Below are positions 13,337 through 33,484 of a stretch of 37,623 nt of DNA, one piece after another (the first letter of the stretch is position 1; every line of letters begins with the position of its first letter). The notes beneath the pieces were generated by a model, which saw nothing but the letters and a program-made list of their open reading frames with translations, was not told the origin of the DNA and ran no database searches. The stretch is taken from positions 1 through 37,623 of the forward strand of contig JANTGH010000018.1 in NCBI GenBank assembly GCA_024763055.1. Reading direction: 5' to 3'. This DNA is from Desulfobulbaceae bacterium. Its GTDB lineage: Bacteria > Desulfobacterota > Desulfobulbia > Desulfobulbales > Desulfobulbaceae. The translations under genes were made by a program, and so were the position numbers.

Positions 13337-14449
13337 ATGGCAGGAAATACATTCGGAACGGTTTTCAGGGTGACGACCTGGGGTGAATCGCACGGCACGG
13401 CTCTTGGGGCGGTCATTGACGGTTGTCCTCCGGGTATGGAGCTTACCGAGGCAATGATCCAGGAGGAATTGGAGCGAAGGCGGCCTGGCAAGGGTGGTGC
13501 AACCTCGCCGCGCAAGGAGCCTGACCGGGTGCAAATCATGTCCGGCACCTTTTGTCCTGAAGGCTGTCCCTGCGAGTTGACCACTGGCACTCCCATATCT
13601 CTGGTCATCATGAATAGGGACGCCCATTCCAAGTCATACAGCCATCTGCGTGATGTGTTTCGTCCCGGCCATGGTGATATGACCTACCAGGCCAAATACG
13701 GTATTCGCGATCACCGGGGAGGTGGCCGAGCTTCGGCCCGTGAGACTGCGGCCCGGGTCGCGGCCGGAGCGGTGGCCGCCTGCCTGCTCCGGAAATATTC
13801 CATGGATGTGCAGGCTTATACCGTGGCCCTCGGCGGCATCAGTGCCATGCGCCGCGACCTGGATGAAATTTGCGAAAACAGGTTGTTTTGTCCCGACAAT
13901 GAAGCCGCAGGCAGGATGGAAGAGCGAATCGCCGAGGTGCGAAAACAGGGCGACAGTCTGGGTGGTATTGTCGAGATACGGGCCACCTGTCTGCCCGGAC
14001 TTGGTGAGCCGGTTTTTGATAAACTCGATGGAGAGCTTGCCCGGGCCCTGATGTCAATCGGCGCTGTCAAGGGCGTGGAGATTGGTGCTGGTTTTGCGGC
14101 CGCGGCAATGCTTGGGTCTGAGAATAACGATCCCATTTCGCCGGATGGATTCTTGGGAAATAATTCCGGCGGTATTTTAGCCGGCATCAGTAACGGTGAG
14201 CCCTTGATCGTCCGGGTGGCGGTCAAGCCCATTCCTTCCATTCATAAGCAGCAGCAGACCGTTGATATCCATAATGAGTCCAGGACCATCAAGGTCGGAG
14301 GTCGTCATGATATTTCGGCCATTCCGAGAATCGTGCCTGTCTGTGAGGCCATGGTCAGATTGACCCTGGCTGATCATTTGCTCAGGCAACTGCCTCTCAT
14401 CGAGGTACAAAAAACATTTCAGCAGCATGATCGACAAAATGACACGTAA
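13337..14449 (+). CDS. aroC: Chorismate synthase
   Basis: Chorismate synthase converts EPSP to chorismate using reduced FMN, the last common step to aromatic compounds. The 370-residue protein has [18 protein letters not shown], the [12 protein letters not shown] region typical for the family, and [20 protein letters not shown]. Length is normal. The ATG at 13337 follows GGTGGGAG and gives [20 protein letters not shown], the family N-terminus; the open frame upstream overlaps aroK and is not used. Its 3' end overlaps the next gene by 23 bases. Confidence 0.96.
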
Positions 14450-16091
14450 GGAAGCACAACAGTCGCTCGTCCGTTCTGTCTGGATGGTCAGCCGCGAATA
14501 TGAGGGCCTGGCAGGTGCCGGCGGGGTAAAGGATGTCTGCCGGCAACTGGCAGAAACCCTCGTTGCCGAGGCCGGTCTGGCGGTAACCGTTATCCTGCCC
14601 TGTTACGGATTTATGGATGCCGGAAAACTTGGTTTTATTCGGCTGCAACTCATGGGCGGCAGGCAGGCTGAGATCTGTGGCGGTCGGCAGCGTGAGGATT
14701 GCAGTGTGGATATGCATTTTCCCGACAGGGAGCGGCGGGAAACGGTTTCTTTCTGGGAGCAGCGACGCAGAGGGGTTCGGGTGCTGCTGGTCGAGGCCGA
14801 ACGGTTTGCCGAAAAGTCAGGGGTGTATACCTATACGGCCCAAGAGGAGAAAAAGCACGCCTGGCAACGGCGGGGCAGTGGCCATTATGATTATTTTGCC
14901 ATGAATATTCTCCTGCAGAAAGCCGCCCTGGATGTCATGATGCTTCTTGATGAGCGTCCGGATGTCATCCACTGCCATGACGGTCACGCGGCAACCCTTG
15001 CCGCCATGATGCGGGAAAATCCGGGTCATCGCCATTATTTTCGTAACAGCGGCGTGGTGGTGACTATTCATAATGCCGGGCTTGGCTATCATCAGGACGT
15101 TGGCGACCTGCCCTTTGCCCGGGCCGTTACCGGTCTGCCGAAGCCGATCATTGACAGCGGCCTGTTAGGGAAGAGTTTTGATCCCTTTGTGGCGGCTGCC
15201 CGGTATGCGGTCATGAATACGGTCAGTGAAAATTATGCCCGCGAACTGCAGGAAACAGGCGATGATGCCCGTACCGGCTGGCTGGGCCATCGTCTGCTGA
15301 AGATGGGTGTTCGGCTGGCCGGAGTGACCAATGGCATCAATCCGCAGGATTTCAGTCCGGCGCGGGCGGAAAAGCTTAACCTGGCGGCCCCTTTTAACCC
15401 TATGCAGGGAGATTTTGCAGGGAAGCATCTTTGCAAAGAGGATATGCTCGTCGCCTGCAGCAGGAAAACAAAATGGGCGCATGTAGAACAGGTGGGCCTG
15501 TTGACACCTGAGGATAGATTACCGCTTTTTACCTTTATCGGCCGGCTGACCGCGCAAAAAGGGGTGGATATCCTGCTGCGCAGCCTGTCCCTGCTTCTTG
15601 CAGAAGATTCACGTTTTCAGCTTTTGGTTTTGGGTTCCGGGGATCCCCTGCTTGAAGAGGAGCTTGCCGCTCTCACCGGGAAGAAAGAGATTGCGAACCA
15701 GGTCTGTTTTCTTAAAGGCTATGATCCCGATCTGGCCATGCGGATATACGCGGCCGGTGATTTTTTTGTTATTCCTTCGCTCTATGAGCCCTGCGGTCTG
15801 ACCGATTATATTGCCCAGCTGCTTGGTAACCTCCCTATTGTCCATCTGGTGGGTGGCCTGGTTAAGGTGGAAGACGGAAAGAACGGTTTTGGATACCGTG
15901 AACATTCTCCGGAAGCCCTGGCTGCAACCATGCAGCGGGCATTATCGGTATACAGGAAGAAACCGGACCGGATCCTGACCATGCAGGAGACAGCAGTGCA
16001 ACGTATCTATAGCCGTCACACCTGGAAGCAGGCCATGGATGGTTACCTTGCCCTCTATGATCAGGCACTGACCATGACCTGCGGAAGTTGA
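14427..16091 (+). CDS. glgA: GT5 glycogen/starch synthase-like glycosyltransferase
   Basis: GT5 synthases add glucose from ADP- or UDP-glucose to an alpha-1,4-glucan. The 554-residue protein has the catalytic N-terminal half (about 15-270, with [15 protein letters not shown]) and a GT1-like C-terminal half with [15 protein letters not shown] and [18 protein letters not shown] (the EPCGL motif, about 455-459). The usual KXGGL donor-binding motif reads GAGGVKD, so the lysine is replaced by glycine. Between about 60 and 145 there is an Arg-rich stretch unlike E. coli GlgA. Starts at 14427 (M1) or 14439 (M5) both overlap aroC and neither has a clear ribosome binding site. The next gene begins one base after the stop. 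Confidence 0.82.
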
Positions 16092-16092
16092 C

Positions 16093-17043
16093 ATGAAGCG
16101 GGGAAACATACAGTCAACACACGATCGAGACAAACACTATCCTCGCTGGTTTGGACAGCGACGCGATCATTTTCTCCGCCGGATGATGGAAGATCTTTTT
16201 CATTTCGACAGGTCGTTTCAGCAGTTGTACGGGGTCTATCTTGATTGCCGCAAACCCGAGGGACCTTATGGCATCGTTGATCTGCTTACCCCTGAGACAC
16301 GAAAACAAAGGGAACGTATGGGGGAGCTGTTAACCCGGATGATAGGTACGGAAACTGAAAAAGGCCGGCTCTGGGAGCTGAAAGACCTCTGTCACCTGAT
16401 CTGGCCCGGGCATGATCTGGAACAGAATATCCGTGGTTCCCTGATTGACTGGTTGTTTGGTTCCGTGTTTCATGAGTCCATGAAACTTAAGGAAAATATA
16501 TATCTGCTCAATACCTATGGCCCGACAGCTATTCGTATGCATCGGCTACCACCTGTCCCTTCCGGACAGGGCCGGCAATCATTAAAGACCCTTCCCCGGT
16601 TGTCTGCTATGGTTGATGTGGAGGCCTTGATTCATCGGATTGCATCTGATGTGGTCCGCCAAATAGAGCAGATTGCCGTTCTTCTCGGGCAGGCAAATTG
16701 CACTGTGCGGATGATGCTGCCCGAGCTGGCCGGCAACCTGCTGGTTGTCAGGTTACTGGTGGAGAAAGAAGAGACTGTCCGGGAATTATGGGGAGAAGGG
16801 ATTGAAGCGTTGTTGTCCGATATGTTTGCCGGCAGTGTTGCCCGGGGTTTTTGTGCCGTCGGGCGAAGCTATCTTTCGGGTCAGTGGTATCCACAGGCTC
16901 TGACCATGTATAAACGGGCCTTGGGGAGTGATCCCGAGTGTAATGAGGCCCGCGTGAAGGCTGCGCATATCGAGGCCATGTTAAGGGAAAACAGCCGCCT
17001 GCGGGACTGGGGGGTGAGCAAGAAGGTAGAGCAGTTCAACTGA
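16093..17043 (+). CDS. Unknown protein with TPR-like C-terminus, coupled to glgA
   Basis: I do not recognise this 316-residue protein. It has no signal peptide or membrane segment. It is helical throughout; the last third (about 255-300) reads like a tetratricopeptide unit (SGQWYPQALTMYKRALGSDPECNEARVKAA). The N-terminal part is basic and aromatic-rich. GGAAG precedes the ATG, and the ATG starts one base after the stop of the glycogen synthase (TGACATG), so the two are almost certainly co-translated. That suggests a partner or regulator of the synthase, but this is inference from position. gap follows 99 bases downstream. Confidence 0.8.
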   Translation: MKRGNIQSTHDRDKHYPRWFGQRRDHFLRRMMEDLFHFDRSFQQLYGVYLDCRKPEGPYGIVDLLTPETRKQRERMGELLTRMIGTETEKGRLWELKDLCHLIWPGHDLEQNIRGSLIDWLFGSVFHESMKLKENIYLLNTYGPTAIRMHRLPPVPSGQGRQSLKTLPRLSAMVDVEALIHRIASDVVRQIEQIAVLLGQANCTVRMMLPELAGNLLVVRLLVEKEETVRELWGEGIEALLSDMFAGSVARGFCAVGRSYLSGQWYPQALTMYKRALGSDPECNEARVKAAHIEAMLRENSRLRDWGVSKKVEQFN

Positions 17044-18708: not shown

Positions 18709-19446
18709 ATGAAAAAGGCATGTTGGTCACTGACTGTCGCCTTTATTTTTGCCGCCGGCAGCAGTCTGGCCGCTGATGTGCATTGGAGCTATACCGGTGA
18801 TGGTGCTCCCGATCAATGGGGAGAGCTTGAACCCGCTTATGAAATGTGCGCCAAGGGTGTAAACCAGAGCCCGATTAATTTAACGGGCTTTGTTGAAGCG
18901 GAACTCGAACCCATAACCTTTCATTACACCGGGCTTGCGACTGAGGTCGTCAATAACGGGCACTCCATCCAGGCAAATTACACCTCGGGTTCGACTATGG
19001 AGATGGCAGGAAAGATCTTTGAGCTGAAGCAGTTTCATTTCCATTCACCAAGTGAAAACGCCATCAATGGTGAGTCCTTCCCCATGGAAGCCCATTTTGT
19101 CCACGTGGCCCAGGATGGATCTTTGGCCGTTCTTGCTGTTATGTATCGGATCGGTGAGGAGAATGAGGCGATGGCAAGACTGTGGAAACAGATGCCGGCG
19201 GAGGCCGGTCAACAAGCTGCCATGGCTTCCCAGGTCAGGGCGGACGATCTGATGCCTGAGAATCGCGATTACTATCGTTTCAACGGGTCCCTGACCACCC
19301 CTCCCTGCACGGAAGGTGTTTTTTGGCTGGTCATGAAAGAGCCGATGACTATATCGCAAAAACAGTTGGATGAATTTACCCATGTCATGCATCATCCCAA
19401 TAACCGTCCGGTACAACCGGTCAATGCCCGTCCGATATTGCAGTAA
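18709..19446 (+). CDS. cah: Periplasmic alpha-class carbonic anhydrase
   Basis: The enzyme interconverts carbon dioxide and bicarbonate. The 245-residue protein begins with a Sec signal peptide (MKKACWSLTVAFIFAAGSSLAA, positions 1-22, likely cut near SLAA), so it works in the periplasm. Zinc ligands are H110 and H112 in QFHFHSPSEN and H129 in EAHFVH. NQSPINL and TTPPCTEGVFW are family signatures; cysteines C47 and the one in PPCTEG may form the usual disulfide. AGGAGGG precedes the ATG. It stands alone, followed by a strong terminator. Confidence 0.96.
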   Translation: MKKACWSLTVAFIFAAGSSLAADVHWSYTGDGAPDQWGELEPAYEMCAKGVNQSPINLTGFVEAELEPITFHYTGLATEVVNNGHSIQANYTSGSTMEMAGKIFELKQFHFHSPSENAINGESFPMEAHFVHVAQDGSLAVLAVMYRIGEENEAMARLWKQMPAEAGQQAAMASQVRADDLMPENRDYYRFNGSLTTPPCTEGVFWLVMKEPMTISQKQLDEFTHVMHHPNNRPVQPVNARPILQ

Positions 19447-20849: not shown

Positions 20850-23800
20850 ATGACCAATCATCAATCATCTCCCGAAAAAATAGAATCCGAGGCCTTGCGG
20901 GCTAATTTGCAGGAAACCGCCGGTCAGGTCGTCATTGATCCCCTCTATCGTCCCCTGCAGGATGTTGTCGTTAAATTTCAGGGATTATCGGGCAAGCTGG
21001 AAAAGCTGCTTTACGAGATTAACCACCCTTATCGTAACTGGCAGATCGTTGTTCCCGAACTTCGGGCTTTTGTTTTGAAGAATCTCCACCATTACCGCAA
21101 GCATCCGCAGGGGCCGGAGGCATTCACCCTGTTTACTTCCATTTTTCTTGAAGCCCTGGAAGAGTCACAAAAAAAAGGCCATCTGGTGCGAATGGTTATG
21201 GAGGCCATGCTTGCCTATACTGATAAACTGATCAACTCCATGGATTACAGCTGCCTGCTTCGTTATGAGGCGTCTTTAAATGATTTGTTTATCCGTCTTG
21301 CTCATCTCGATACAATAAATAACCGAGTTATGATGTACATGGTGCAGGGCCACCATCCCATGAAGAAAATGGCTCTATGTTTAATTGGTTTTGCCGGAGG
21401 CCGGGATGAAATAGAGTTTGCTTACGGCCCGATTGCCCATCTGATGCAGAAAATTCTGCGGCTGAACTATGCATATTGGCTCGGAGAAGAGGACCCGCTG
21501 CCTTGGTTTGAGGAGCATTGCGGGGAATATTGTAATGACTGGCAGGCCGGGCCTTTTCTTGCCGCCATTTCCCATGCCAGGATCAGGGAGCATTTGCGGG
21601 CTTTGGAAAAGATCGATGTTGATAAAGATCCTTTGGCCGGTTTGCAGGAGATACTTCAACTGCCGGCCCATATGGACATTGTCCGTCTTTATCGGGAAAT
21701 ACCGGGAAAGTTAGGGGCAAATTCGGCAAAGGACGAGGGCTCGCCCTTTGTCGAAAATCGCAAACTTCTCTTCCTTTTTAGAATTATGGATACTCCCGGT
21801 TTGTATCTGATTCATGAGGAGAGCCTGCGTGAAATTAATCGTTCTCTTGTTCAGTTGATTCGCAAACAGAGTTTTGAAGATATTGAGCAGTTTTTTGTCA
21901 CTACCTTCCAGTTGCTCAAGGCCAATGTCCGTAAATATCCGCATACCTCGCTGCAATGTATCCAGGTGATAGGAGGGGAAGTGTTCAAACGGGGCAACTC
22001 GCGTCTTGTTGAGGCCTTTCTCTGGCAGGCAGTGCGTTTTGGTTTCCAGTATGCCAATGTCATGGGGGTAGATGAGGATTGGCAGCCTCTTACCAACCCT
22101 GCCCATTTGGCCAATATCCGGGTCTGGCTCAATCTGATCATGCAGGAACCCAAGTGGTGCTCCATCCTTTTTTCGGCCCTGATCATCAATATCAAACTAT
22201 CCGGCACCTGTGTCAAGGATACGGATCTTTTTCAGCGCGACATCACCGATCTGCTCAATCACCCCATTGGACCGATTTACAACCTTGCCAAACAGTTCAC
22301 CAAGCTGATGCCGGTTTTCTTTAATGAGATCGGGGCCGAGGGTGAACTGCGGGAGGTCTCCACCGAACTCGACGAGCTGCATAAACGCAGGGACGTGCTC
22401 ATTCATTTTTTACGCAAACAGAGTCATGTGGAATCGAGCAACCTGATTGTCGATTTTATCAAGGCGATATTTCGCTTCTGGCTCACCTTGGACAAGCAGC
22501 ATCTCCAGGAATATCTTCCCGATGAAATTCTGGCCCAGGTGGAGGTGTCCGGCCCTTTTGTTGACGGGCAGCACCTTCTGACCACCAGAATACGTGAGGA
22601 TCTGCAGTTTGATTCCATGCAGGATATCCTGCTGTGGGAGGATAAGGAGCGACAAGTTTATCTTGCCCGTCAGCAGGATGTGTCGGCCGTGGAGAGAAAG
22701 CGATTTGAACAGCTGGTGCGGATGTTCAAGCTTCTGCACCAGAAGTATAATCTTGGCCTGCCCGAGCTCCGCAACCAGCTGCAACAGGCAGCCCAGACAG
22801 GTTTCCCGGAGATGGAGGAGTTGCTGACGGTGCTTGAAAAATGCGACACCATGAAGTGTCTTTCCGCGCTCATGGACCATCTTGAACACCTTAAAGAGAT
22901 CATCTTAAGCGAGGAGGTGTTTGAACCCCGGGAGGAGATTTATTATAAACGCCATATTGCTGTGGATATCCCGTCTGTTTATGGACGTTACAGTGAACGT
23001 AAATTTGATGCACTGGGCTTGAGCTTCCGGCTGGAAAATCTCGCTAACATCTACCTTGAACGACTCTCACATACCATCAATCTCAACTTTATTACCCAGG
23101 CCACATTTATTCAGATCGTCAAGTGTCTGCGTCTCTACCTCAGAGCCCTGAGGATAGACGGTATCAGCAGCCGCCGGTTGGATACCTATGCCAGCCTGCT
23201 TTCCTCTTCCATTGCCATTAAACGATTTTCTTATACCCAGCACCTTGATATTATGCGGGGTCTTTCCGAGGGGGTCAAGGATGTCATCTATGCCTATTAT
23301 ACCAATATCCATCAAAATAACCTGTCGATTATTATCCCCCAGATCGGCAGAGAAAACCTGCTGACTATATACAGGTCGCTCTGGGATGAGCAGGATCTTC
23401 CCTCAACCGTCCTGCGACTGTCTGAATCTTTTTTTCGGGATTTGATTGCCACCACCTTTGGCCTCCAGCATCTTGACAATTTTATCAGTCGGATCATTCA
23501 AACTTTGGAAGCGCAAAAGGATATTCTTGACGAGAAGACCCTTGACCTGTTGATGACCTATAATCCTAAAAAAGCAATCAGCTCGTTGTTTAATAAGAAT
23601 CCGGCGACCCATAACCTGATTCATTTAGGCAACAAAGGATTTAATCTGATGGTGCTTGCCGATGACGGTAAGCCCGTGCCGCAGGCGGCAATCATAACAA
23701 CGGAAATTTTTCGCTGCTGGCCGGCGGTCCGCGAGTTTGATCGGGCCCGGGATGAGTTTATGGGCCGGGTACGTTCTTCAATTACGGAGATTGAAGAACT

Positions 23801-25109
23801 GACCGGCAAGGTTTATGGTTCGGGTGACCGGCCGCTTCTGCTCTCGGTACGAAGTGGCTCAGCCATATCCATGCCCGGCATGATGACGACTATCCACAAT
23901 GTTGGCTTTAATGGTGAACTTGTCGAGGAATTTGTCCGTAAATATCCGGAACAAACGTATTTCGCCTGGGACAACTACCGACGTTTTATTCAGTCCTGGG
24001 CCATGGCCAGGGGTGTTGACCGGGAAGAATTTCAGACCCTGATGAATGAGCATAAACTTCGTTATAACGTTCGCCTGAAACGTGATTTTTCACCAACGCA
24101 GATGCAGGAGCTTGCCATCAGGTATGAAAAGGCCGGGCAGCTGTTTGACTGCGCTGTTCCCGAAGATCCCTGGCTGCAACTTATCGGATCGGTTGAAATG
24201 GTACTGGGCTCATGGAATACCCATAAGGCCAGGGAGTACCGCCGGTTGATGGATGTGTCCGATGACTGGGGAACCGCTGTCATTATTCAGGCCATGGTGT
24301 ATGGAAACCTGAGTCATCAGGCAGGCAGCGGGGTGCTGTTTACCGCCCATCCCTATCGTAAGGTTCGGCGGGTGGCGCTCTGGGGTGATTACGCTCCCGG
24401 TGATCAGGGTGAGGATATTGTCTCCGGGCTGGTGACCAGTTACCCGATATCCGTGGAACAGGCAGAGCTCGATGGCAGGTCGGTGGAAAATTCCCTGGAA
24501 CGGCGTTTTCCCAAAATTTATGAGGAGTTGCTCTCCATCTCCCGTGACCTGGTCTACACCAAGGAGTGGAATCCGCAGGAGATCGAGTTTACCTTTGAAG
24601 GGCCGGAGCCGGAACAACTTTACATCCTCCAGACCAGGGATATGATTACCATTAAGAAGAAAGAGCATCTCAATGTGTTTACAGATACGCAGCGTCTGCA
24701 GGAATCGGTTCTTGGCAAGGGGATCGGGGTCAGCGGTTCCGCGCTTTCCGGGCGCGCGGTCTTTACCGAAGAGAATATTCGTCAGCTGCGCAAAGAGGAC
24801 AAGAAGGTATCCCTGATTCTTATTCGCCAGGATACGGTTCCCGAGGATATCCGTGAAATATCAATGGCTGAAGGACTGTTGACCGCCCGCGGCGGTCAGA
24901 CCTCGCATGCTTCAGTGGTGGCCACCCGGCTGGAAAAAACCTGTGTGGTCGGCTGTCGGGATCTGCAGGTATTTGAAACCAGAGAGTATGCCTTGATAAA
25001 CGGGCGGAGGATTAACTTCGGTGATCCCATTTCCATTGACGGCCGCAACGGGCTGTTTCTTAAAGGCATGCATCCTATACAGGAAGAAGTCCATATTTTG
25101 CCGTTGTGA
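20850..25109 (+). CDS. PPDK-like dikinase lacking the PEP/pyruvate barrel, with large unknown N-terminal region
   Basis: This 1419-residue protein has two modules of pyruvate phosphate dikinase at its C-terminus. An ATP-grasp domain (about 925-1265) carries GNKGFNL (K929), LSVRSGSAISMPGMM (R1001), FAWDNYRRFIQSW, GSGVLFTAHP, GDQGEDIVSG (E1188) and LYILQTRD. A phosphohistidine domain follows with ARGGQTSHASVVA (H1353). The protein stops 66 residues later, just after GDPISIDGRNGLFLKG, where PPDK would enter its PEP/pyruvate barrel. All ATP-site motifs look intact, so autophosphorylation of H1353 from ATP is likely; the acceptor is unknown. The first ~920 residues are soluble and helical with no domain I recognise. 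The ATG follows GAGAG. It is a single gene, convergent with a small membrane protein. Automatic names such as PEP synthase would be misleading. Confidence 0.88.
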   Translation: MTNHQSSPEKIESEALRANLQETAGQVVIDPLYRPLQDVVVKFQGLSGKLEKLLYEINHPYRNWQIVVPELRAFVLKNLHHYRKHPQGPEAFTLFTSIFLEALEESQKKGHLVRMVMEAMLAYTDKLINSMDYSCLLRYEASLNDLFIRLAHLDTINNRVMMYMVQGHHPMKKMALCLIGFAGGRDEIEFAYGPIAHLMQKILRLNYAYWLGEEDPLPWFEEHCGEYCNDWQAGPFLAAISHARIREHLRALEKIDVDKDPLAGLQEILQLPAHMDIVRLYREIPGKLGANSAKDEGSPFVENRKLLFLFRIMDTPGLYLIHEESLREINRSLVQLIRKQSFEDIEQFFVTTFQLLKANVRKYPHTSLQCIQVIGGEVFKRGNSRLVEAFLWQAVRFGFQYANVMGVDEDWQPLTNPAHLANIRVWLNLIMQEPKWCSILFSALIINIKLSGTCVKDTDLFQRDITDLLNHPIGPIYNLAKQFTKLMPVFFNEIGAEGELREVSTELDELHKRRDVLIHFLRKQSHVESSNLIVDFIKAIFRFWLTLDKQHLQEYLPDEILAQVEVSGPFVDGQHLLTTRIREDLQFDSMQDILLWEDKERQVYLARQQDVSAVERKRFEQLVRMFKLLHQKYNLGLPELRNQLQQAAQTGFPEMEELLTVLEKCDTMKCLSALMDHLEHLKEIILSEEVFEPREEIYYKRHIAVDIPSVYGRYSERKFDALGLSFRLENLANIYLERLSHTINLNFITQATFIQIVKCLRLYLRALRIDGISSRRLDTYASLLSSSIAIKRFSYTQHLDIMRGLSEGVKDVIYAYYTNIHQNNLSIIIPQIGRENLLTIYRSLWDEQDLPSTVLRLSESFFRDLIATTFGLQHLDNFISRIIQTLEAQKDILDEKTLDLLMTYNPKKAISSLFNKNPATHNLIHLGNKGFNLMVLADDGKPVPQAAIITTEIFRCWPAVREFDRARDEFMGRVRSSITEIEELTGKVYGSGDRPLLLSVRSGSAISMPGMMTTIHNVGFNGELVEEFVRKYPEQTYFAWDNYRRFIQSWAMARGVDREEFQTLMNEHKLRYNVRLKRDFSPTQMQELAIRYEKAGQLFDCAVPEDPWLQLIGSVEMVLGSWNTHKAREYRRLMDVSDDWGTAVIIQAMVYGNLSHQAGSGVLFTAHPYRKVRRVALWGDYAPGDQGEDIVSGLVTSYPISVEQAELDGRSVENSLERRFPKIYEELLSISRDLVYTKEWNPQEIEFTFEGPEPEQLYILQTRDMITIKKKEHLNVFTDTQRLQESVLGKGIGVSGSALSGRAVFTEENIRQLRKEDKKVSLILIRQDTVPEDIREISMAEGLLTARGGQTSHASVVATRLEKTCVVGCRDLQVFETREYALINGRRINFGDPISIDGRNGLFLKGMHPIQEEVHILPL

Positions 25110-29034: not shown

Positions 29035-29439
29035 ATGGATTCTTTTCAAGAACAACGAAAATACCCTCGAATTTTTTTCTCCGGTGAAGAGGTGGCTCTT
29101 GCCAAAATTGCCCCTGCCGCTGGAGAGAAGAGTTTCGACGTTCGCCTGTTAAATGTCAGTGAGGGCGGCATCGGTTTTCATCTCAAGCGCTCAGCGGGCA
29201 TCTGGCTCAAGGTGAACGACAGTCTGCAGTTGATTACCCTGTTCGGCCATCCGCATCTTGGTGACGTCTCTGATCTGTCCATGGAAGTACGCTGGATAAT
29301 GGATGAAGAATATCTTGATCATGTGGTGGTCGGTTGTGAATTCATCAATCTTGATGTCCATAATCGGGAATTGCTCCAGGATTTTGTCCTGGTTGCACTG
29401 AGTGAGCATAAACACCAGCAACAGGATGTGCCCTCATAA
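29035..29439 (+). CDS. PilZ domain protein
   Basis: PilZ domains bind cyclic di-GMP and pass the signal to partners. The 134-residue protein has RxxxR (R8 to R12, RKYPR) and NxSxxG (N40, S42, G45 in NVSEGGIGF), the two ligand motifs, on a single-domain beta-barrel. No other domain is present. The ATG at 29035 follows AAAGGA; an in-frame ATG 60 bases upstream lacks a ribosome binding site and adds residues before the PilZ motif, so it is not used. The last six bases overlap the end of the convergent letB. The target process is unknown. Confidence 0.9.
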   Translation: MDSFQEQRKYPRIFFSGEEVALAKIAPAAGEKSFDVRLLNVSEGGIGFHLKRSAGIWLKVNDSLQLITLFGHPHLGDVSDLSMEVRWIMDEEYLDHVVVGCEFINLDVHNRELLQDFVLVALSEHKHQQQDVPS

Positions 29440-32211
29440 CGATGCATCGGCATCATCCTTGTTCTCTTCCGGGTAGGTCTGTTGTTGTCCCTGTTCGATT
29501 TCCACTCCCGGTACATCTGTTTCCCCTGCGGCATGGCCCGTTAATTTAAGGTTCGGGCTCCATGCTTTCCAGTCGTCCCTCGCTTTTTTTGCAAGCGGAA
29601 AATGGGCACCGTCGGTCACTGGGCCGCCCATGGCTTTTCCTGCCGGAGTCGCTAATGCCACTCCACCCCTGATGAGCGCTTCCATGGACTCCGTCCTGAT
29701 GCTCATGCCGGAAAATACTCCGCCGTCTACTTCAAGACCGCTGACATTCCAGAATTTTGTTCCCTTATGGACAATAAAGACATATTCAGGAAGAATGTTG
29801 GCCTGCAGCCAGACCTGCCTGCCGGTGGGCGAAAGCTGGTAACCGGTTATTGATCCGACCGGCACCCGGCGATAGTAGATCGGGCTTCCCGGCCCCAGAG
29901 AACCCCTGGTCGGACTCTCCAGGATGATCTGCAGACCGGCAATGGTTCCATTTCCTCCCTGTGCCTGATTTGACACTGAAAAGGTATCGGCCGGTTTTCC
30001 TTTTCCCGGAAGCAGGCTGATATATGATCCTCCCAGGACGGTCTCCAGGTTGCGAATGCCGGCAAGGTTCATCTGGGGTCCAACCAGGTAAAGAATGGTA
30101 TCCTCTCTGAACAGTTTTTTTGCCTCCCTCCGAACCACGGCCCGGGCTATCACCTGATCAAATTCGGGGTTAAAATCGACATCGATGATTCTGCCGATCT
30201 CGATGCCCTGATAGCGGATTTTCGTATGCCCATTGATGGACTTTGCCGAGTGCAGATACAAGGTCAGGCGTAGTCCGTCGGCATCTTTGGCTGCGTTCAG
30301 ATTTTTGTAGAGATGAAAAATGGTGCCCTTGTGGAAGCGGGAGGTCTGCCTGGGGTTATACAGGGAGATGCCGCCGCTGAAAATTGATTCCAGAGACCCT
30401 GCTTCCAGTAAAATACCCTGCAGACTGGCTTCGGCTTTTATTCCGGATAGCGCATAAAAACGAGAGAAGCCATTGATCAGATAGCGGAATTTCTGGAAGA
30501 TGAGCAGGTCGATGGTTATCCGGTGGGATTTGCGGGCAAGGGACAGATCCATGACCTCGCCGATTTTAATATTGTTATACAGCACCGGTGAGCCGATCTT
30601 GATGGCGGCGGGTTTTTCCGTCTGTATCTGCAGGCTGAGCCCGTCTGGCTGCAGGGCGCTTTCATGCGCTACGGCATCATGGTAGCTTTCATAGAGGTGA
30701 AACTTTTTTATTATTTTGCCCGGTGGTTGTTTTTCCCCCTGTTCAGCTTTCGGAGTGACAAAGGTAACACCGCCGGCGAGCATGGCCCGCATGGAGGAGA
30801 GGTTGATTTTGAAATTGGAAAGATTGCCGTTTATCTGGACGCCACTGACATTCCAGAAGATGGAGTTGTCGGCAACAAGCTGGTCAAAGGGTTTGTAGAT
30901 AAGGATGGTAGTGCGAACACCTTTGCCGTTTTCGGTCAGGGCGATATCCGTGATCTCGCCGACGATGAGCTTTCGATAAAAAACAGGCGTGCCGATGGTC
31001 AGTGATCCGCTGTCTTTGGCCTTGAGGGTTAACATTGTCCCCGGCCGCAGGGTGGGAATGGGCATGGGGTTGGCCTCCACAATAAATTGGTCGCAGTGAG
31101 GGCCGCCGCCGATCTGGAAGGTTATGTATGCCCCGGAAATCAAGGTCTCGAGGTTTTTAATGCCTTCAATGGAGACCTGGGGCCTGATGACCCAGAAACG
31201 GGTGTTTTTTCTTAAAATGACTTCTGCACGAGGGTCAAGGAGAATGGTGGCAGTGACCGTGTGAAAGGTATCGTTGTTAATGTCAAGGCTCTTGACGACC
31301 CCGGCCTTGAGGCCGCGATACAGAACCTTGGTTTTACCGGCGACGATTCCGGCTCCGGTGGCTAACTGCAGGGTCATGGAAACACCGTATTGGGCATCTT
31401 CAAAATCCTTATAGAGGTGATATTTGCGTCCGGATTGTATCGTCGGCGTGTTTTGCAGCTCTTTGGGCGTTGCGCAGGATATGCCGCCGTAGATAAGCGA
31501 GGCCAGAGATTCCATGTTGACGGTCAGGCCGGTTTGCAGGTCACCGCTGACCGAGAGACCGGAGGCATTCCAGAAACGGGTTCCTTCATGGATCAGGTGG
31601 CGAAATTCCGGTTTGATGAGAATCTTGAGGGTGATCATCTCATCCCTATCCAGGCTGTAATCTTCGACCAGGCCGATGTTCAGGTTTTTGCTGTAGACTC
31701 GGGACCCCCGCTGCAAAGAGTACAGGCTTGGCGTTTTCAGGGTAATGTGCAGGCCCGGCGCATCGGAATCCAGTGGCGGCGGGGTCTCCAACCCTTCAAA
31801 AAAACGGCTTTCAGTTGTTGCGTTGCCTTTTTTAACGGCAATATAGGAGCCGCTGACCAAGGTCTCTAAACCGGTGATGCGGCCGGCGGAGATCTCCGGA
31901 CGGACAATCCAGAATTTCGTGTCCTTGACCAGGCCCGGCCGCGTTTTTTTATTCATCTCGATATGCAGATCAATGCCCTTGAGGTCACCGTCGATTTCAA
32001 CTTTTTTTACCGTCCCCACCGCAATTCCCTTGTATATGACCTTGGTCTTGCCGGCTGTGACGCCCTCGGCAGTGGCAAAGTGAATGATGATATCAATGCC
32101 GGCGTCCCGATAACTGGTGTACAACAGCCAGCCGCCGATGCAGAGAGCGATAAAGGGAAGAAACCAGATCGGCGAGATGAATGATTTATTTTTCAGTTCA
32201 GGCTGTTGCAT
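29434..32211 (-). CDS. letB: LetB/YebT-like MCE protein with seven MCE domains
   Basis: MCE proteins form tubes across the periplasm that carry lipids between the membranes. The 925-residue protein has one N-terminal membrane anchor (about 13-32) and seven MCE repeats beginning near residues 39, 153, 276, 391, 523, 646 and 759, each with a strand, a YxxIxxG-type turn and, in most, a FW(N/V)(V/A)SG or VRP segment. E. coli LetB also has seven, PqiB three, so the LetB assignment is favoured. The C-terminal ~65 residues are low-complexity and polar. The start overlaps letA by 14 bases, indicating translational coupling. No PqiC-like lipoprotein gene follows. Confidence 0.93.
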   Translation of the reverse strand: MQQPELKNKSFISPIWFLPFIALCIGGWLLYTSYRDAGIDIIIHFATAEGVTAGKTKVIYKGIAVGTVKKVEIDGDLKGIDLHIEMNKKTRPGLVKDTKFWIVRPEISAGRITGLETLVSGSYIAVKKGNATTESRFFEGLETPPPLDSDAPGLHITLKTPSLYSLQRGSRVYSKNLNIGLVEDYSLDRDEMITLKILIKPEFRHLIHEGTRFWNASGLSVSGDLQTGLTVNMESLASLIYGGISCATPKELQNTPTIQSGRKYHLYKDFEDAQYGVSMTLQLATGAGIVAGKTKVLYRGLKAGVVKSLDINNDTFHTVTATILLDPRAEVILRKNTRFWVIRPQVSIEGIKNLETLISGAYITFQIGGGPHCDQFIVEANPMPIPTLRPGTMLTLKAKDSGSLTIGTPVFYRKLIVGEITDIALTENGKGVRTTILIYKPFDQLVADNSIFWNVSGVQINGNLSNFKINLSSMRAMLAGGVTFVTPKAEQGEKQPPGKIIKKFHLYESYHDAVAHESALQPDGLSLQIQTEKPAAIKIGSPVLYNNIKIGEVMDLSLARKSHRITIDLLIFQKFRYLINGFSRFYALSGIKAEASLQGILLEAGSLESIFSGGISLYNPRQTSRFHKGTIFHLYKNLNAAKDADGLRLTLYLHSAKSINGHTKIRYQGIEIGRIIDVDFNPEFDQVIARAVVRREAKKLFREDTILYLVGPQMNLAGIRNLETVLGGSYISLLPGKGKPADTFSVSNQAQGGNGTIAGLQIILESPTRGSLGPGSPIYYRRVPVGSITGYQLSPTGRQVWLQANILPEYVFIVHKGTKFWNVSGLEVDGGVFSGMSIRTESMEALIRGGVALATPAGKAMGGPVTDGAHFPLAKKARDDWKAWSPNLKLTGHAAGETDVPGVEIEQGQQQTYPEENKDDADASL

Positions 32212-33484
32212 GGTCGGAAGACGGGTGGTCGGAGGGAGAGGTTACGTCCCAGAGGAGGCGGGGATCAAAACTTATGGTGGCCAGCATGGTGCAGGCCACG
32301 ACTCCGGCAAAGTAGAACACCGCCGGGGCGGCATTGATGGTCGAGAGAAAACCAAATCGGACCAGGGCGCAGAGAAGGGCAATGACGAAGATATCGAGCA
32401 TCGACCATCGGCCGATAAATTCAATGAAACGCAGCATAATGGTTTTATGCCGCCGCCAGCCGGGAAGACGGAAATGGATGGTCAGCAGGATGAGAAGCAA
32501 CCCGGAAATTTTGAAAAGCGGCACCAGGATGGAGGCGGTGAGAATAATAGCGCCGATGCCGTAGGACCCCTCTTTGAAAAAATAAATAATACCGTCCATG
32601 ATGGTTGACTGATCGGGAACACCGAAATAATCTACTTCCATAATGGGCAGAACATTGGCGGGCAGGGTAAGGATAATGGCAGTGAGCACCAGCGCCCAGG
32701 TACGGCTGAGGCTGTTTTTTTTTCGGAGATGCAGGCGCTCGCCGCAACGGGGACATCGTCGGTTCTGTGAGGCAATGGGGACGACTTTTTCACAGCCGTG
32801 ACAGAGGCAGAGCCCGGCATCCGCCCCAGTAACGGCTTGGACCGGCTCGGGCAGCGGTGAGCCGCTGTCGGGATCCAGGCGGGACCAGAACAGCGGTCTG
32901 TCCATGGTCGAAAGAACGCCAATGGTGCACAGTACCAGGCCGATGAAGCAGAACAGGCCGATGTCATATTGTATCTTCGCCATGTGGCTCATCTTGATGA
33001 TGGTGACAAAGACACCGATCAGATAGACATCCGGCATGGCCCATTCCCGCAGGTGATGGATGGTCGTAAGGGAACGGGCGATCCAGGGCTGTCGCCATCC
33101 CCTGTTCAGGGTCAGGCTGACGGAAAATATCAGGAAAAGCAGGAGCAGGGGAAGGAAAAACCCGCAAAGCATGATCAATATGCCGACGATAAATTGTCCC
33201 TGACCGAACATACTGAGTGTGCTGGCAAAGAGTGAGGCCGAAGTGTTTGTGCCCAGGATATCAAAGGTGAGAAGCGGCATGAAGTTGGCAGGCAGGTAAA
33301 GAAGTAGTCCGGTCAGGCTGATGGCCAGTGTTTTTTCGATGCTGTTTGTTTTCCACTTATGCAGCCGTTTTCCGCAGCGTGGACAGCGGACGGTATGGCC
33401 CGGCGGCGGCTGGACGTCCGCCATCAGCAGGTCGCAGTTACCGCAGAGCAGGGGCTCGGGTGTGGGGGAATGATCGTTTTCCAA
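32198..33484 (-). CDS. letA: LetA/PqiA-like inner-membrane protein
   Basis: LetA works with LetB in lipid transport at the inner membrane. The 428-residue protein is a tandem duplication: each half has a zinc-ribbon (C14/C17/C34/C37 in the first, CHGC and CPRC near 225-245 in the second) followed by about four membrane helices containing the family stretches LPANFMPLL and LPANVLPIM. The start is TTG at 33484 (TTGGAAAACGAT) because no upstream ATG is in frame and the zinc ribbon is then complete. It heads the letA-letB operon and diverges from the MFS gene. Both zinc sites look intact. Confidence 0.93.
   Translation of the reverse strand: MENDHSPTPEPLLCGNCDLLMADVQPPPGHTVRCPRCGKRLHKWKTNSIEKTLAISLTGLLLYLPANFMPLLTFDILGTNTSASLFASTLSMFGQGQFIVGILIMLCGFFLPLLLLFLIFSVSLTLNRGWRQPWIARSLTTIHHLREWAMPDVYLIGVFVTIIKMSHMAKIQYDIGLFCFIGLVLCTIGVLSTMDRPLFWSRLDPDSGSPLPEPVQAVTGADAGLCLCHGCEKVVPIASQNRRCPRCGERLHLRKKNSLSRTWALVLTAIILTLPANVLPIMEVDYFGVPDQSTIMDGIIYFFKEGSYGIGAIILTASILVPLFKISGLLLILLTIHFRLPGWRRHKTIMLRFIEFIGRWSMLDIFVIALLCALVRFGFLSTINAAPAVFYFAGVVACTMLATISFDPRLLWDVTSPSDHPSSDHATA

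Follow-up and report, generated by a model that had tools for sequence, protein, structure and literature searches.

DIK, a putative barrel-less dikinase of the PPDK type that pairs almost one to one with a divergent GAPDH, GapL, in Desulfobacterota

The DIK gene and its domain layout

The window, the whole stretch of 37,623 nucleotides that was analysed (contig JANTGH010000018.1, Desulfobulbaceae), carries an open reading frame, here designated DIK, whose product comprises a long N-terminal module, an ATP-grasp domain and a phosphohistidine domain (Table 1). As the sequence-only reading had reported, a gap gene lies 2.7 kb upstream of DIK and a GT5 gene ends 4.76 kb upstream.

Table 1. Features of the DIK locus (positions in the window; residue limits of the domains are approximate)
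Feature	Position	Strand	Remarks
GT5 gene	14427..16091		
Canonical type I gap, 338 aa	17131..18147	+	Conserved DIK neighbour, also near DIK in relatives
DIK open reading frame	20850..25109	+	1419 aa, ATG start; Desulfobulbales; predicted barrel-less PPDK-type dikinase
N-terminal module, residues 1-~905	20850..23564	+	No known family; predicted helical, one beta hairpin
Conserved block, residues 441-530	22170..22439	+	SALIIN...DTDLFQ...IGAEG.LR...FLRKQSHVES; candidate acceptor site
Conserved block, residues 695-730	22932..23039	+	E.IY.KRHIA.DIPS.YG.Y.E.KFDALGL.FRLE; candidate acceptor site
ATP-grasp domain, PPDK type, residues ~906-1280	23565..24689	+	Approximate limits
Phosphohistidine (swivel) domain, residues ~1281-1411	24690..25082	+	Approximate limits
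H1353 codon	24906..24908	+	Predicted phosphohistidine; kept in 57/57 family sequences

In the Pfam scan only PPDK_N (best stretch at residues 969-1208, E 6.6e-25) and PEP-utilizers (residues 1323-1401, E 8.6e-17) were matched, and the barrel domain (PF02896) was absent from DIK, which confirms the earlier claim that the barrel is missing. The protein ends at the point where the PEP/pyruvate barrel would begin. It had also been claimed that some 920 N-terminal residues hold no recognised domain; the absence of a domain was borne out, while the length is better given as ~905. The N-terminal 920 residues were matched in 133 of 145 related genomes, including all 97 of good quality, and the frame is therefore not a product of chance. 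The gene is apparently interrupted in a few genomes, by division into two frames (G207) or by in-frame stops (G087, G171, G295 and G078), which was counted against the best explanation given below.

The DIK family is conserved in sulfate-reducing bacteria and relatives of these; cultured members that carry the gene include Desulfobulbus rhabdoformis DSM 8777 (L091) and Desulfobulbus elongatus DSM 2908 (L095). A search of contigs gave at least 579 encoding stretches, and the best 80, which were kept, look by title and identity like Desulfobulbales and close relatives; no match was found in the plasmid collection. Alignments A2 and A3 comprised 68 of these 80 loci (12 left out, some of them truncated) and 71 of them (9 below the coverage filter), respectively. 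Of the 111 neighbourhood sources, 109 yielded a recognisable DIK frame; the exceptions, L078 and L155, were scored as lacking an upstream gap in the 80-locus figure and were excluded from the 64-locus figure.

A protein of this layout might be one half of a split PEP synthase or PPDK whose barrel is encoded elsewhere, and its two catalytic domains do match PPDK residues 2-518. However, only three PEP-utilizers_C barrels were found in the 97%-complete window genome, and all three sit in complete enzymes, namely two PEP synthases and one enzyme I. No orphan barrel protein was found in that genome, and none at the DIK locus. Moreover, DIK is conserved to its last residues among Desulfobulbales. 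A split enzyme is thus disfavoured and appears extremely improbable, and the description of DIK as barrel-less stands.

The catalytic part resembles that of PPDK

By phmmer, DIK residues 918-1412 were aligned with PPDK residues 13-514 (E 1.5e-72). In a model of residues 300-1419, residues 906-1417 (model 607-1118) were aligned with residues 2-518 of PPDK 1kbl; this predicted structure gave a Z of 37.8 over 467 residues, with an rmsd of 14.3 because the mobile domains are differently placed. For the ATP-grasp and His domains the best VIA Z against PPDK was 38.1 (Foldseek E 8.6e-29), and the phosphohistidine domain matched the isolated PPDK carrier domain 2fm4 (Z 17.3, 127 residues, rmsd 2.5). 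PEP synthase (Z 19.1) and rifampin phosphotransferase (Z 19.0) both scored far below PPDK over the C-terminal third. The NCBIfam scores were 349 bits for PPDK, 68 for PEP_synth and 28 for RIF_Ptrans, the first of these lying under the curated PPDK cut-off (TIGR01828, 843.45).

The catalytic set of the PPDK ATP-grasp domain is Lys, Arg, an acidic pair, Gln and Arg. K929, R1001, E1246, Q1261, R1263 and H1353, the last within the motif RGGQTSHA, were invariant in all 57 DIK family sequences (31 from Desulfobulbales and 26 from other orders, leaving out L016, L047, L064 and, earlier, L006, L007, L011 and L018), and E1244 was kept in 56; the last four ATP-grasp residues were placed by eye via the EFT...LQTR motif. 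The first acidic residue is Glu in DIK and Asp in PPDK. DIK therefore has an ATP-grasp domain with the catalytic residue set and a phosphohistidine domain with the catalytic His, and the earlier claim to this effect agrees with Pfam, phmmer, the structure alignment and conservation alike. These two domains are 30-35% identical to those of 13 PPDK entries (TIGR01828) over 447-476 aligned residues. In contrast to PPDK, DIK is without the PEP/pyruvate barrel and carries the ~905-residue module in front. On these sequence data DIK is best read as a PPDK-type dikinase that lacks the barrel and would be active.

The N-terminal module as a candidate acceptor site

Neither Pfam nor the PDB sequences gave a significant match to residues 1-~905, and the N-terminal alignment gave none against PDB profiles and Pfam. 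By structure prediction and fold search, which had been proposed as a check, the AlphaFold model of the module was found to be helical with one beta hairpin and not a barrel; on this model a hidden PEP/pyruvate barrel in this region is rejected. The likeness to HEAT/ARM solenoids is loose (best Foldseek E 4e-3; the top VIA alignment spans 162 residues with Z 10.2 and rmsd 5.1, such Z values being common for helical models). The rifampin-binding-domain fold was not among the matches to residues 1-905 in whole-model searches, in which ~737-905 were barely covered.

Two blocks of the module are strongly conserved. The first, residues 441-530, contains invariant columns in alignment A1 (32 sequences), and R522, K523, H526 and E528 are kept in 57/57 family sequences. 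The second, residues 695-730, is likewise conserved in columns of A1, has K700, R701, H702, E716 and K718 in 57/57, and holds the predicted beta hairpin (strands 694-701/708-715). The most conserved loops have low model confidence, which was counted against the best explanation. The sequence-only reading had placed the acceptor site in this region; that proposal gains support, and the module, which seems to replace the barrel, is the likely candidate for the acceptor site.

Barrel-less enzymes with another arrangement have been described. As outlined in PMC4844700, members of the RPH superfamily combine an ATP-grasp domain, a swivel histidine domain and a separate acceptor domain. DIK is similarly barrel-less with both catalytic domains; however, the RPH acceptor domain lies between them (order ATP-grasp, rifampin-binding, histidine), whereas in DIK the N-terminal module precedes both, and DIK scored only 28.3 bits against the RPH family NF041857 (cut-off 999). 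HpeHI and its relatives are presented in PMC12167813 as two-component barrel-less dikinases with a swivel histidine and aromatic acceptors. HpeI matches the DIK ATP-grasp domain (Z 15.6), but HpeHI consists of two proteins with an RPH-type ATP-grasp domain, while DIK is a single protein with one of the PPDK type. DIK would widen the dikinases by setting the same ATP-grasp/histidine engine to work with a new acceptor module at the opposite end of the polypeptide.

Gene neighbourhood and the glucan question

Throughout the phylum the genes that recur near DIK are gap, gapL, pgk and tpiA, gapL encoding a divergent GAPDH (GapL). In 28 loci of other orders (distant paralogues L066 and L067 omitted), gapL lies downstream of DIK in the same orientation in 20 (no more than 400 bp away in 19, and 403 bp away in L041) and is convergent with it in 4, and canonical gap directly precedes DIK in 12. 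The order gap-DIK-gapL-pgk-tpiA was found in L042 (pgk and tpiA identified by Pfam), L046, L048 and L049. The presence of canonical gap and pgk in these operons, which leaves no obvious missing step, was counted against the best explanation. In the window genome gapL heads gapL-pgk-tpiA-secG on another contig, and gapL was absent from the fetched DIK flanks in all 80 Desulfobulbales loci, a point counted against the best explanation. In several orders DIK and gapL adjoin the old rpoN-hpf-ptsN-rapZ cluster. Several other neighbours (aroC, aroK, rimI, dnaJ and others) are named by inspection of their sequences.

The plant enzymes GWD and PWD are barrel-less dikinases with starch-binding domains and a C-terminal ATP-grasp domain. 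DIK might by analogy phosphorylate a glucan or a free sugar, as had been guessed from the nearby GT5 (glycogen/starch-synthase-like) gene, which lies near DIK in 41 of 111 sources. Nearly all of these are Desulfobulbales, and in other orders GT5 was near DIK in 1 of 30 loci. When the genome lists were compared by eye, GT5 was found in 346 of 395 phylum genomes, 240 of them without DIK, while in 9 of 115 DIK genomes GT5 gave no match at E<=1e-10, although 8 of these are at least 95% complete. DIK is barrel-less like GWD/PWD, but no starch-binding domain was found in it by Pfam: for residues 1-920 of the window's DIK no family reached E<=1, and none of the 25 listed of 30 weak families (32 members, N-terminal region) was a starch-binding domain. 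Together with the phylum-wide neighbours named above, the spread of GT5 and these Pfam results disfavour a glucan acceptor, which appears very improbable; the earlier guess is not supported, GT5 being near-universal and mostly without DIK while GapL tracks DIK.

DIK is paired with GapL

In GapL the Cys, His and substrate Arg of GAPDH are retained, whereas the NAD-binding Asp is lost. Both Pfam GAPDH domains were above cut-off in GapL of the window genome; three GapL proteins fell below the TIGR01534 (GAPDH-I) cut-off (292-332 bits against 367.2).

Among 395 phylum genomes, 114 have both DIK and GapL, 276 have neither and 5 are discordant (the Fisher test on this co-occurrence ignores phylogeny). 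Three of the discordant genomes have DIK only: two hold the distant paralogues L066 and L067, whose occurrence without GapL was counted against the best explanation, and one is 76% complete. The two with GapL only are 79% and 62% complete; the occurrence of GapL without DIK in two incomplete genomes of family f20 was likewise counted against it. Six families (f16, f24, f25, f47, f63 and f68) include genomes with and without the pair; compared by eye, each genome has either both genes or neither, except G254 of f24. DIK is thus paired almost one to one with GapL, unlike GT5. As DIK occurs almost only with GapL, its target is probably a component of central sugar metabolism. A mirror-tree comparison was uninformative: over 10 loci the distance correlation was higher for DIK with canonical Gap (r 0.82) than with GapL (r 0.76), which was counted against the best explanation.

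A decidedly unlikely possibility is that DIK acts on a small molecule outside this node and that its link to GapL is a shared ancestral gene cluster only. The acceptors of described barrel-less dikinases are small molecules of various kinds, to judge from PMC4844700 and PMC12167813, and the position of both genes beside the rpoN cluster would fit. However, the co-occurrence holds where the two genes are unlinked, as in Desulfobulbales, and where families gained or lost both.

The main rival is that DIK is a regulatory protein kinase which passes the phosphate of H1353 to GapL (or to Gap/PGK) and so switches its activity. The near one-to-one pairing with a single protein is consistent with it, and the helical module, with its weak HEAT/ARM likeness, could be a docking surface. 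But such likeness is common for helical models, no phosphate-accepting residue was found in GapL, and we infer that the invariant charged motifs, which sit in loops of low model confidence, suit a ligand site better than a broad docking face. Regulation by DIK is therefore rather unlikely.

Proposed role at the triose-phosphate/3-phosphoglycerate node

The best reading is that the DIK family represents new barrel-less dikinases which, partnered by GapL, act at the triose-phosphate/3-phosphoglycerate node, and it seems somewhat probable that DIK is a small-molecule dikinase there. As a tentative candidate for the acceptor, the carboxylate of 3-phosphoglycerate fits best. ATP would bind in the ATP-grasp domain, and its beta-phosphate would be transferred to H1353 with release of AMP. 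As in PPDK, the gamma-phosphate would probably be taken up by Pi to form PPi, water being the less likely acceptor; Pi is suggested only by the closeness to PPDK. The histidine domain may then swing towards the N-terminal helical module, which stands in place of the barrel and would hold the acceptor. As a phosphoglycerate dikinase, which is possible though doubtful, DIK would convert ATP, Pi (or water) and 3-phosphoglycerate into AMP, PPi (or Pi) and 1,3-bisphosphoglycerate via H1353, and the product would be passed to the dedicated GapL and reduced, probably with NADPH. Such a reaction would use a dikinase to drive gluconeogenesis, as PEP synthase or PPDK does at the pyruvate step.

The reaction might also run the other way and save energy, 1,3-bisphosphoglycerate (or another C3 phosphate) with AMP and PPi from sulfate activation giving ATP and Pi. 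According to PMC5371819, PPDK of bacteria and protozoa runs towards ATP formation, and aprA was above cut-off in 84 of 115 DIK genomes. However, it did not reach the cut-off in the other 31, and 75 of 159 aprA genomes were without DIK (two with distant paralogues counted as lacking it). Since aprA and DIK are often apart, a strict link with sulfate reduction is rejected as a rule, and energy saving is quite improbable.

In the searched literature, subscription papers and preprints lying outside its coverage, neither the architecture of DIK nor its link to GapL was found described. The presence of DIK in all 97 good-quality related genomes, together with its acceptor module of no known family and its near one-to-one partner in a textbook pathway, would mean an undescribed component of lower gluconeogenesis/glycolysis in much of Desulfobacterota. 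If it is a phosphoglycerate dikinase, DIK would combine PPDK machinery with a new acceptor module and could take the place of phosphoglycerate kinase in the uphill gluconeogenic step. GapL offers a direct handle on the substrate of DIK, which a simple coupled assay of the two purified proteins could therefore address.

Architecture of DIK

The sequence-only reading had the dikinase end where the PEP/pyruvate barrel (PF02896, PEP-utilizers_C) should start, and indeed the chain of DIK, the barrel-less dikinase of the pyruvate phosphate dikinase (PPDK) type, stops just past its histidine domain (Table). Pfam recognises PPDK_N and the PEP-utilising mobile domain and nothing else, and the top PDB sequence match is PPDK (DIK 918-1412 against PPDK 13-514). 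In the AlphaFold model, which covers residues 300-1419 with a mean pLDDT of 79.5, model residues 607-1118 (window residues 906-1417) match residues 2-518 of PPDK 1kbl. In the fold comparison 13 PPDK entries reached Z scores of 27.3-38.1, PEP synthase reached 19.1 and rifampin phosphotransferase (RPH) 19.0; the rmsd to PPDK is high (7-14) because the domains differ in placement.

Sequence alignment places K929, R1001 and H1353, the predicted phosphohistidine, on PPDK Lys22, Arg92 and His455. E1244, E1246, Q1261 and R1263 were matched to Asp321, Glu323, Gln335 and Arg337 by eye through the EFT...LQTR motif, because the HMMER alignment differed over that stretch. In PPDK these residues are catalytic. 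A set of 57 DIK family sequences, 31 of them belonging to the window's order and 26 to other orders, keeps E1244 in 56 cases and the other six residues throughout.

Features in the window and at other loci (L071-L073, loci of the window's genome; G207, a genome with a DIK copy)
Feature	Position	Description
316-aa protein	window 16093-17043	
Alpha (eukaryotic-type) carbonic anhydrase	window 18709-19446	between gap and DIK
DIK open reading frame	window 20850-25109	ATG start, 1419 aa, intact
pqiA and 925-aa PqiB-like protein	window 29434-33484	- strand
PPDK_N protein without barrel	L071:2691-5252 (contig C44)	854 aa, PEP-synthase-type ATP-grasp and histidine domain
PPDK_N protein without barrel	L072:3874-7029 (contig C29)	1052 aa, response-regulator domain and PPDK_N
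PPDK_N protein without barrel	L073:3605-6133 (contig C97)	843 aa, PEP-synthase-type ATP-grasp and histidine domain
DIK copy of G207	C1:682935-685599	apparently split across two frames

A split enzyme completed by a separate barrel protein had also been considered; the search of the window's genome turned up three PEP-utilizers_C barrels, two in PEP synthases and one in an enzyme I, which argues against it. The same genome encodes three further PPDK_N proteins without a PF02896 barrel, and an enzyme I gene lies near that of the 843-aa protein.

Assignment of DIK to PPDK was ruled out by the missing barrel and a score under the cut-off, and assignment to RPH by domain order and score. Glucan water dikinase is likewise a barrel-less dikinase. 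We know of no case among it, RPH and HpeHI in which an acceptor module lies ahead of the ATP-grasp and histidine domains. RPH (PMC4844700) and the two-component HpeHI (PMC12167813) are barrel-less dikinases too. Judged by its sequence, DIK is a predicted dikinase forming a separate family, with its own putative acceptor module.

The N-terminal module

Pfam gives nothing at E<=1 for residues 1-920 of the window's DIK and weak, scattered matches only for the same region of 32 family members, and a PDB sequence search with the module returned nothing significant (best E 0.049). A module that folds as the PEP/pyruvate barrel would have refuted the sequence-only reading; instead, AlphaFold predicts it to be helical (mean pLDDT 80.4, pTM 0.63) except for one beta hairpin at 694-701/708-715. 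Fold matches, which cover mainly the residues up to ~736, are generic helical solenoids of a kind common for helical models; the top hits reach E 4e-3 in Foldseek and Z 10.2 in VIA. In the family alignment, blocks 441-530 and 695-730 match the ATP-grasp in conservation, and charged residues within them are invariant. The lowest model confidence includes several loops of conserved blocks (403-417, 454-458, 527-529, 697-712), which would fit a predicted site modelled without its ligand or partner.

Distribution of DIK and its co-occurrence with GapL

Of 145 related genomes, 133 encode the N-terminal module, among them all 97 of good quality; in a sample of 395 genomes of the phylum it occurs in 117. 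Among the best 80 of at least 579 stretches, the named relatives belong to Desulfobulbaceae and allied groups, with cable bacteria and species of Desulfobulbus among them. Two of the 117 (genomes G444 and G515) hold distant paralogues with 25-28% identity across part of the query, which keep the catalytic His and 26-27 of 69 invariant residues and lack the KRHxAxxIPS motif. The two distant paralogues, at loci L066 and L067, are frames of 1489 and 1549 aa with the ATP-grasp kept as well; genes of one cluster adjoin both, that at L066 being a GAF/sigma-54 activator by Pfam. In-frame stops were seen in the DIK copies of G087, G171, G295 and G078.

GapL, a divergent GAPDH, was found at E <= 1e-60 in 116 of the 395 genomes; 114 carry both DIK and GapL and 276 neither (Fisher p = 3e-93, uncorrected for phylogeny). 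DIK occurs without GapL in G254 (76% complete) and in the two genomes of the distant paralogues, where the search at this threshold gave no GapL; GapL occurs without DIK in G149 and G220 (79% and 62% complete, both of family f20). In six families of mixed content (f16, f24, f25, f47, f63, f68), the two are jointly present or absent except in G254, a fairer sign of linkage than the uncorrected p value. Agreement of DIK with aprA is much lower (84 genomes with both, 31 with DIK alone, 75 with aprA alone), and GT5, a glycogen/starch synthase-like gene, is near-ubiquitous (346/395). On the other hand, pairwise distances of DIK over 10 loci correlate no better with those of GapL (r 0.76) than with those of canonical Gap (r 0.82).

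Gene neighbourhood

When genes around 110 loci of Desulfobulbales and other orders and the window (111 sources) were clustered, GAPDH was the single dominant neighbour family, present in 68 of the 111 sources and in 25/30 loci of other orders. These GAPDHs are of two kinds, canonical Gap (~335 aa) and GapL (407-443 aa), the latter scoring under the GAPDH-I cut-off. Among 28 loci of other orders, a count that omits the distant paralogues, gapL follows DIK in the same orientation in 20, and in 4 the two genes converge; at the remaining 4, L047 and L064 stop at contig ends, gapL of L063 is ~11 kb off and that of L043 is on another contig. Canonical gap is immediately upstream of DIK in 12 of the 28, and L042 (confirmed by Pfam), L046, L048 and L049 have the order gap-DIK-gapL-pgk-tpiA.

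For Desulfobulbales, no gapL was found near DIK in the best 80 of at least 579 stretches; gap is immediately upstream in 35/64 loci with enough upstream sequence. The window's genome has gapL on contig C195, in gapL-pgk-tpiA-secG.

Further upstream, the 30 loci of other orders carry rapZ (13), hpf (12), rpoN (9), ptsN (8) and EIIA-man (6), with examples checked by Pfam. A rpoN-hpf-ptsN-rapZ-EIIA-man cluster lies shortly upstream of gap/DIK in several orders (L043-L070), and is a possible regulatory context for these genes.

GapL and a possible reaction of DIK

In an alignment of 20 GapL and 16 canonical Gap proteins, GapL has several insertions and retains the active-site Cys (SaASCTTT), His (TvHA) and substrate Arg; the NAD-selective Asp is missing (canonical NDL, GapL N.GR). 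Loss of the Asp suggests that GapL uses NADP(H) and, together with the kept catalytic residues, makes it look like an active, possibly biosynthetic GAPDH.

Sequence comparison establishes the architecture of DIK, its intact catalytic residues and missing barrel, the conserved N-terminal motifs and the linkage to GapL. In the mechanism we propose, ATP would load H1353 and, given the PPDK type of the domain, PPi would probably be released; the histidine domain would then move to the N-terminal module, where the acceptor may be a member of the triose-phosphate/3-phosphoglycerate node. The main rival is that DIK regulates GapL. For the catalytic reading, kinases that make acyl phosphates are often paired with reductases of the GAPDH type, as in aspartate kinase/semialdehyde dehydrogenase and PGK/GAPDH, and by this analogy 3-phosphoglycerate is the boldest specific candidate acceptor. 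Compared with PGK, a dikinase would give this uphill step a stronger drive, much as the conversion of pyruvate to PEP is driven by PEP synthase and PPDK.

Other genes of the window

The 316-aa protein has no match in Pfam or NCBIfam; in several Desulfobulbales its relatives are flanked by the GT5 gene and gap. Relatives of the carbonic anhydrase occur near DIK in a few further loci. The PqiB-like protein contains six MlaD-domain stretches and exceeds the 542-position PqiB model.
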